Source: an uncultured bacterium (GTDB lineage Bacteria > Cyanobacteriota > Vampirovibrionia > Gastranaerophilales > Gastranaerophilaceae). Taken from it: a stretch of 64,000 nucleotides of DNA. This document shows positions 780 to 60,305 of the stretch, in pieces. Every line of letters starts with the position of its first letter. Position 1 is the stretch's first letter. The notes under the pieces were generated by a model. That model was not told the origin of the DNA. It saw only the letters and a list, made by a program, of their open reading frames with translations, and did no database searches. Location: assembly GCA_902777855.1 (NCBI GenBank), contig CACYVN010000008.1:62001-126000 (forward strand). The letters are read 5' to 3'. The position numbers and the translations under genes were made by a program.

Positions 780-809
780 TATAAAGTCATTTTTTATTAA
801 AAAATTGCC
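780..809 (-). promoter_or_regulatory. GGCAATTTT-N15-TTTATA promoter-like motif (site a)
   Basis: On the minus strand GGCAATTTT (809-801) and TTTATA (785-780) are separated by exactly 15 bases, followed by TAGGTA. The site lies 34 bases before the TTG start of the Gly/Met-rich gene. The same arrangement occurs at five other places in the window. It is not a canonical sigma-70 -35/-10 pair. Confidence 0.55.
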
Positions 810-21635: not shown

Positions 21636-21833
21636 TTAGTTTACACCTGAAGCGGTTGAATTACTGTTGCTTGCAGGTTTGAATGAAATAGGACCGGTAG
21701 TATTATATTGCGGATTGTTCAGCCATTCTGCAAATAATAATTTTGGTTTCTTTGTATCCTGTTTTTGAGTATATGGTTTAAATTGTGATTCATGTTCTCT
21801 TGTTACTTTCCCAACTCCGTTTATTTTGCTCAT
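21636..21833 (-). CDS. Small hypothetical protein
   Basis: A 65-residue polar, basic protein rich in Asn, Ser, Thr and Lys. The start is the ATG at 21833, since GGAGG is 7 bases upstream of it and abuts the other ATG at 21839. A TGAAATTCT-N15-TTTATA motif lies upstream and an HLR1 box beyond it. No known family. Confidence 0.6.
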   Translation of the reverse strand: MSKINGVGKVTREHESQFKPYTQKQDTKKPKLLFAEWLNNPQYNTTGPISFKPASNSNSTASGVN

Positions 21834-21873: not shown

Positions 21874-21903
21874 TATAAAGTATTTTTTAATGACAGAATT
21901 TCA
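21874..21903 (-). promoter_or_regulatory. TGAAATTCT-N15-TTTATA promoter-like motif (site g)
   Basis: A variant of the shared motif, read on the minus strand before the 65-residue protein gene. The spacer is 15 bases as in the other sites, and the -10-like half is again TTTATATA preceded by AATAC. Confidence 0.45.
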
Positions 21904-23999: not shown

Positions 24000-24188
24000 T
24001 TATCCAAGTAGAGCATCTAAAAGCTCTGCGTTAGAAACTGATTTGCTTGAATTTCTTACCTGATTTCTGTACATGTAAGTTCTTAATGCTTCCCTGATTA
24101 ATTCAGATCTCGTTCTGTTTTCGTTGTTTGCTACAGAATCGATTTCGTCTAAAAATTTTTCCGGCATTGAAATTAATACTCTTGCCAT
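24000..24188 (-). CDS. Ribbon-helix-helix (CopG-type) DNA-binding protein
   Basis: A 62-residue protein: beta strand ARVLISMPEKFLDEID, helix 1, then 'NENRTRSELIREALRTYM' with the RSELIREAL helix typical of RHH repressors/antitoxins. AAAGGAG 7 bases before the ATG at 24188 decides the start; the 13 upstream codons are non-coding. The GCAATTTT-N15-TTTATA motif and an HLR1-like box lie upstream, so autoregulation or RpaB control is possible. It leads a two-gene unit. Confidence 0.8.
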   Translation of the reverse strand: MARVLISMPEKFLDEIDSVANNENRTRSELIREALRTYMYRNQVRNSSKSVSNAELLDALLG

Positions 24189-24230: not shown

Positions 24231-24260
24231 TATAAAGTATTAATTCAATAAAAAATTGCT
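24231..24260 (-). promoter_or_regulatory. AGCAATTTT-N15-TTTATA promoter-like motif (site b)
   Basis: AGCAATTTT (24260-24252) and TTTATA (24236-24231) on the minus strand with a 15-base spacer, 42 bases before the CopG-like start. Confidence 0.5.
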
Positions 24261-28972: not shown

Positions 28973-29002
28973 GGCAATTTTGCAATATAAATTTTTTTTA
29001 TA
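28973..29002 (+). promoter_or_regulatory. GGCAATTTT-N15-TTTATA promoter-like motif (site d)
   Basis: GGCAATTTT at 28973-28981 and TTTATA at 28997-29002 with a 15-base spacer; 78 bases before the plus-strand gene at 29081. Confidence 0.55.
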
Positions 29003-36289: not shown

Positions 36290-36319
36290 TATAAACAATT
36301 TTATTGTTTCAAAATTGCC
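36290..36319 (-). promoter_or_regulatory. GGCAATTTT-N15-TTTATA promoter-like motif (site c)
   Basis: GGCAATTTT (36319-36311) and TTTATA (36295-36290) on the minus strand, followed by TAGGTA exactly as at site a; 39 bases before the annexin-like gene. Confidence 0.6.
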
Positions 36320-46725: not shown

Positions 46726-46755
46726 AGCAATTTTTTTATTTAAAATGTTTTTATG
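46726..46755 (+). promoter_or_regulatory. AGCAATTTT-N15-TTTATG promoter-like motif (site e)
   Basis: AGCAATTTT at 46726-46734 and TTTATG at 46750-46755, spacer 15. The candidate start codon at 46761 lies where transcription would begin, so the message may be leaderless. Confidence 0.45.
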
Positions 46756-50283: not shown

Positions 50284-50313
50284 GGCAATAAATTTTGTTA
50301 AAATGTTTTTATA
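50284..50313 (+). promoter_or_regulatory. GGCAATAAA-N15-TTTATA promoter-like motif (site f)
   Basis: GGCAATAAA at 50284-50292 and TTTATA at 50308-50313 with a 15-base spacer, 18 bases before the M16 gene, followed by ATAGGTAG. Confidence 0.6.
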
Positions 50314-59948: not shown

Positions 59949-60242
59949 TTAAACCTCGACATCAGCATATTCTTTATCGGGGATATAATCTGCATCGGCA
60001 ATAACCAACTGAGTCGGTTTGCCTTTCGGCGGAACTACATCTGCATATTTATCAGCAATTTCCTGCGGTACAACAAATGAAGATTTAGGTTTTATTGTAA
60101 GTTCTCCTCCGCTTGCATAAACTCCGGTCATTTGAATTGTACCAATTTTACCTGCTTTTGAGGTTTTATCTGTTTTACCGATATTAAATAATTTTGAAAT
60201 TCCTGATGCAGCACCAAGTCCTTTAGTTGTTAAATCTTTCAT
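59949..60242 (-). CDS. Small hypothetical protein
   Basis: A 97-residue protein with Gly/Lys-rich start and a polar Pro/Asp-rich end; no known domain. GGAG stands 8 bases before the ATG. The upstream motif (site h) is a variant of the shared promoter, but the 180-base upstream gap shows no other feature. Confidence 0.6.
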   Translation of the reverse strand: MKDLTTKGLGAASGISKLFNIGKTDKTSKAGKIGTIQMTGVYASGGELTIKPKSSFVVPQEIADKYADVVPPKGKPTQLVIADADYIPDKEYADVEV

Positions 60243-60275: not shown

Positions 60276-60305
60276 AATAAAGTATTTTGAAAAGTCACAA
60301 TTTCA
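60276..60305 (-). promoter_or_regulatory. TGAAATTGT-N15-TTTATT promoter-like motif (site h)
   Basis: Same spacing and same AATAC before the second half as at 21874-21903; 34 bases before the 97-residue protein gene. Confidence 0.4.

Follow-up and report, generated by a model that had tools for sequence, protein, structure and literature searches.

An order-wide, strictly spaced promoter-type element marks a putative alternative-sigma regulon in Gastranaerophilales

Several described promoter classes come close to the element reported here. Promoters of the sigma-70 (RpoD) type, TTGACA-N17-TATAAT, share with it a two-part layout, a 17-bp spacer (with GCAATT taken as the -35) and an A+T-rich -10, whereas its hexamers, GCAATT and TTTATA, differ, its spacer is single and strict, and it stands before one gene set. 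RGCAATTWT/TTTATA does not conform to the housekeeping TTGACA/TATAAT, and TTGACA-N17-TATAAT showed no detectable enrichment in a 423-kb sample. Group-2 sigma factors (RpoS-like; cyanobacterial SigB-SigE) usually read RpoD-like promoters; the candidate reader considered below, L032, scores on the RpoD, RpoS and cyanobacterial RpoD models, but its region 2.4 and 4.2 residues are altered and the element departs from the RpoD consensus.

ECF promoters are of the GGAACTT-N16-TCTGA type (RpoE/SigW). The element resembles them in its GG..A.TT -35 and comparably rigid spacing, but has neither the GGAAC/AAC core nor a CGT-, GTC- or TCTGA-like -10; it was not found near ECF genes, and GGAAC-N-GTC was not enriched in the 423 kb. 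A possible 8-N11-8 layout recalls sigma-28 (FliA/WhiG) promoters, TAAAGTTT-N11-GCCGATAA, but both halves differ, TAAA-N15-GCCGATAA is not matched, the sigma-28 pattern gave no spacing peak in the same sample, and a FliA/WhiG-family sigma, which in this genome scores above the model cut-off, also occurs in an outgroup order that lacks the element. The sigma-54 consensus, TGGCAC-N5-TTGCW, differs as well and was not enriched there. The element fits none of the promoter consensuses tested, and its geometry fits sigma-70, ECF and, less well, sigma-28; it appears to work like an alternative-sigma promoter, with assignment to any named sigma class being unsupported.

The window analysed here is a 64-kb stretch on contig 8 of a 1.94-Mb genome in 31 contigs. 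RGCAATWWW-N15-TTTATR occurs in it six times, at the positions given in a preliminary description of this DNA and nowhere else. The mean over 100 dinucleotide shuffles of the window was 0.05 matches (largest 1), and a scan of spacers from 8 to 23 returned six matches at N15 and at most one at every other length. Two sites of the form TGAAATTNT-N15-TTTATW had also been listed, and they exist (shuffle mean 0.03). The sites are as follows.

780 to 809, minus strand: GGCAATTTT-N15-TTTATA, before a 131-aa Gly/Met-rich protein (ORF 351-746; TTG start about 33 nt downstream)
21874 to 21903, minus strand: TGAAATT variant, weaker, before a 65-aa protein (21639-21833; ATG 40 nt downstream)
24231 to 24260, minus strand: AGCAATTTT-N15-TTTATA, before a 62-aa CopG/RHH protein (24003-24188; start 42 nt downstream; RHH_1, E=3e-8)
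28973 to 29002, plus strand: GGCAATTTT-N15-TTTATA, before a 272-aa protein without Pfam match (start 29081, 78 nt downstream)
36290 to 36319, minus strand: GGCAATTTT-N15-TTTATA, before a 350-aa protein without Pfam match (start 36250, 39 nt downstream)
46726 to 46755, plus strand: AGCAATTTT-N15-TTTATG, before a 104-aa protein (ATG 46761, 5 nt downstream)
50284 to 50313, plus strand: GGCAATAAA-N15-TTTATA, before an M16 peptidase-family protein (ATG 50331, 17 nt downstream)
60276 to 60305, minus strand: TGAAATT variant, weaker, with TTTATT, before a 97-aa protein (59949-60242; ATG 33 nt downstream)

The GAAATT variant is weakly enriched genome-wide, with 10 matches at the correct spacer against 4 at spacer +1, and TGAAATT gave no clear spacing peak in the 423-kb sample; the two TGAAATT sites are plausibly weak members of the class. 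Pfam gave no support for the label "annexin-like" earlier attached to the 350-aa protein. Because ATG 46761 lies 5 nt past the -10, the transcript of the 104-aa gene would be leaderless, or its true start lies further in. The ORF lister placed the start of the M16 gene at TTG 50295, within the motif; judging by its orthologues and leader, ATG 50331 is the likely start.

Beyond the window, the same genome was covered by pattern searches, by the motif loci and by one contig (359 kb) together with the window. Across the whole genome, RGCAATWWW-N15-TTTATR matches 28 times and the reversed pattern 3 times; the tighter GCAATT-N16-YTTTATA matches exactly at 34 sites, and at 1 when the spacer is lengthened by one base. 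The spacing scan over 423 kb showed a single peak at one spacing, and the excess at a spacer of 15 over 14 or 16, on which the preliminary description had staked its proposal, is clear. One-mismatch sites number 69 at the correct spacer and 50 at spacer +1, so that perhaps 20 or so of the near-matches are further real sites; with the 34 exact sites, these counts would put the regulon at about 35-55 genes per genome. When all 5-mers were searched de novo for dyads, repetitive coding sequence dominated the result, and a search with a fixed -10 on raw DNA of two genomes of other genera (G112 and G092) gave excess noise, whereas the motif was recovered de novo in these two genomes once the search was limited to non-coding DNA.

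Placement agrees with the two-hexamer promoters of the sigma-70 family, which have two blocks at near-constant spacing (here 34 sites against 1) upstream of, and aimed at, gene starts. Of the 30 loci examined with the correct spacer, 25 fall between genes, and in 18 an ATG on the same strand follows after 21-88 nt (median 35.5); for 29 mis-spaced controls the corresponding counts are 2 and 0.

Alignment of 28 sites gave a consensus with an A/T-rich upstream part, RGCAATTWT(T), a variable middle, mostly A-C or T-T before TTTATA, and then (T/A)A-N-A-T-R-T-A-R-R; the "TAGGTA or similar" reported after the second half is this last part of the consensus. Two spacer-end forms are common, ...ATACTTTATA and ...TGTTTTTATA, the latter being retained upstream of the M16 orthologues and frequent in family f6. 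One promoter form can be written GGCAATTATC...ATACTTTATA, and the sub-forms ATAC-TTTATA and TGTT-TTTATA are used unequally between lineages (own genome and family f6).

RGCAATTWT-N14-CTTTATA may be read as the -35/-10 promoter of an alternative-sigma regulon conserved in the Gastranaerophilales. If TTTATA is taken as the -10 hexamer (-12 to -7), GCAATT would fall at -35 to -30 with a 17-bp spacer, the usual arrangement of sigma-70 promoters. The transcription start would lie about 6-8 nt past TTTATA, within the conserved RTARR stretch, which in the 28 sites lies at the distance expected for a transcription start, and the start codon would mostly follow 20-90 nt later.

The motif was present in all 286 sampled Gastranaerophilales genomes (49 genera, 6 families), with 5-77 matches per genome, mostly 20-40, against mostly 0-2 for the control. 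Outside the order, counts were about background, with 0-3 in three genomes from a different order of the same class and 0-4 in the rest of the phylum; many of these genomes are probably less A+T-rich, which lowers the chance level too but by itself does not account for 30 versus 1. Genera that have fewer strict matches show a first -35 base relaxed to A/T and a last -10 base shifted to T. TTTATT is preferred in genera g17, g18, g24 and g27, in the greater part of g22 and, as a separate case, in family f5. Replacement of the -35 in the low-count genera was considered and rejected, since the motif is kept there with TTTATT and a relaxed first base.

Comparison of orthologous upstream regions, which the preliminary description had proposed, showed the motif kept in several orthologues while the spacer changes. 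The M16 protein is 71-76% identical to rumen MAG records and 43% identical to Candidatus Gastranaerophilales records, which places its genome within this order or very close to it. Seven orthologues at 71-76% identity carry RGCAAT-N18-TTTAT with both halves kept and the spacer sequence diverged, one of them with an insertion after an intact motif, and a further orthologue at 50% identity keeps GCAAT with a near-match at the -10. In two other genera, five matches from four regulon families, at 23-44% identity, have the motif 37-75 nt upstream, some as TCAATT/ACAATT...CTTTATT; no upstream motif was found for the other matches in these genera, including a 23%-identical M16 protein. For the motif-bearing orthologues, regulation appears to be conserved well beyond recognisable DNA similarity. 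Taken together, the specific spacing, the placement and orientation of the motif ahead of start codons, its recurrence throughout the order and its conservation upstream of orthologues strongly support reading it as a promoter-type element that marks a regulon of its own, made up of lineage-type genes.

The 47 proteins encoded downstream of the motif share no common sequence. Pfam matches among regulon proteins are few: CHAP (2), HEAT (2) and single M16, PAP2, HD, RHH, LysM or SLT domains. To judge from these sequences, the regulon comprises mostly uncharacterised proteins without signal peptides, plus some that carry cell-wall-hydrolase (CHAP, SLT/LysM), HD, HEAT-repeat, PAP2, CopG and M16 domains. 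A hydrophobic N-terminal stretch was found in 0 of 39 regulon proteins of the own genome (start within 110 nt) versus 65 of 348 others. Cell-wall-hydrolase domains without a signal peptide suggest that such proteins may leave the cell by a non-Sec export route or through lysis. Glycine at position 2 (12/39 regulon proteins versus 17/348 background in the own genome) was rejected as a regulon feature because the excess was not seen again in G112 or G092. A protein of about 180 aa (L130:2551-3078) and its homologues in these two genomes form a probably coiled-coil family that lies under the motif at about 23% identity.

The preliminary description went further and suggested a separate sigma-factor regulon, setting it against TTGACA-like promoters of tuf, rplU and rplJ, a type whose consensus, as noted above, was not detectably enriched in the 423 kb. 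Its distinct, promoter-marked regulon stands on the spacing, placement, recurrence and orthologue conservation described above; a sigma factor as reader is the most economical explanation, with a good candidate, and we give a probability of roughly two in three to an alternative sigma factor reading the motif. The genome encodes eight sigma-70-family proteins, namely RpoD, three group-2 factors (L030, L031 and L032), a WhiG/FliA-like (L034), a SigB/F/G-like (L035) and two ECFs. From 14 genomes, 78 sigma genes were taken and assigned by best match.

As the specific reader we would name L032, a choice we hold at somewhat less than even odds. L032 is a divergent group-2 sigma of about 300 aa (G000:C2:136.4 kb), whose regions 2-4 are nearest to RpoD/RpoS and yet stand apart from RpoD in NCBIfam matches and in the tree, and its holoenzyme would use a GGCAATTTTT-N13-ACTTTATA-type promoter. 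The L030, L031 and L032 sets form three separate supported clades (L032 clade support 0.999). Among the genomes compared, L032 is restricted to Gastranaerophilales, being clearly present in 29 of 30 genomes of its own family and 16 of 20 of the order's other families; by best-match assignment neither L031 nor L032 has an orthologue in the outgroup order, L031 being equally order-restricted. Across 40 L032 sequences the -35-recognition helix reads (V/I)TKEC(I/V)RQ.E in every case where RpoD reads VTRERIRQIE, and the T of RpoD region 2.4 is replaced by F, N, L or Y.

Relaxation of the -35 accompanies a lysine at the L032 helix residue after RQ.E (L/I to K); in a comparison of six paralogues, no other change inside a recognition helix was noticed to be cleanly diagnostic. 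The mean A/T fraction at the first -35 base is 0.41 with [IM]EK, 0.53 with TEK and 0.23 with other helices. G005 of family f5, with TEI, has the -10 shift to T without -35 relaxation. Exceptions are G196 and G238, relaxed with T at this residue, and G117, fairly strict with K; no sigma residue could be tied convincingly to the A-to-T change in the final -10 base. This covariation is suggestive, and as it involves few, related lineages it may reflect shared descent. In G004, a MAG with a completeness rating of 99% in which the motif is retained, and in G028 no full L032 orthologue was found, nor was one found in G104 at the threshold used; G016 and G026 have fragments. No motif was found in the roughly 1 kb around the sigma genes retrieved, so there is no sign of autoregulation. 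L032 is flanked by genes for small proteins (L132:1139-1411 and L132:3242-3586) with N-terminal NLSFGG and SQSFKG, like some regulon proteins.

Another alternative sigma (ECF L033, group-2 L030 or L031, WhiG/FliA-type L034 or SigB/F/G-like L035) might read the motif instead, a case included in the probability given above for any alternative sigma and, taken separately, rather unlikely. Genes for all these candidates are present, and they are widely retained across the order; GGCAATT-N16-YTTTA resembles ECF promoters in geometry, and this ECF-like -35 and spacing also count against L032, while CAATTWTT-N11-TACTTTAT reproduces the 8-11-8 layout of sigma-28 promoters. However, relatives of L033, L034 and L035 also occur in the outgroup order, where the motif is absent, and canonical sigma-28, SigB, ECF and sigma-54 patterns showed no spacing peak in the 423 kb. 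L031 is order-specific but keeps RpoD-like specificity residues (RERIRQIE).

It is less probable still that an activator bound to GGCAATTTTT over the -35 brings RNA polymerase, carrying its housekeeping sigma, to an AT-rich -10, in class-II manner. Class-II activators would also be expected to give a fixed spacing, the -35 half is under tight constraint and TTTATA would be tolerable as a sigma-70 -10, but the upstream half is short (about 10 bp, at -36 to -27) and neither palindromic nor repeated, and conservation extends to both halves, the -10 half differing from TATAAT as well. An artefact of chance or composition, or a spread repeat, could be imagined for a short motif in an A+T-rich genome but has a negligible probability, given that shuffle, reversed-pattern and shifted-spacer controls were all near zero, that spacer and flanks differ from site to site, and that the motif is found in 286/286 genomes.

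A search of the open-access literature found no paper joining "Gastranaerophilales" and "sigma factor", and nothing that looked relevant by title and abstract. As far as that literature shows, the motif represents a real and previously undescribed order-wide promoter class with a well-defined regulon. As a tentative scenario, to which we assign rather low odds, a duplicated group-2 sigma changed specificity early in Gastranaerophilales and became a dedicated regulator of lineage-specific proteins without signal peptides, some with peptidoglycan-hydrolase domains and possibly non-Sec substrates, with sigma and promoter co-evolving (-35 G to A/T, helix L/I to K). Because the motif drifts between genera yet stays on orthologous genes, the evolution of sigma specificity becomes testable in this group. 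The motif can be scanned for in any Gastranaerophilales genome, which groups dozens of unannotated genes into one regulon and offers a handle on gene regulation in a large gut order known mostly from metagenomes.
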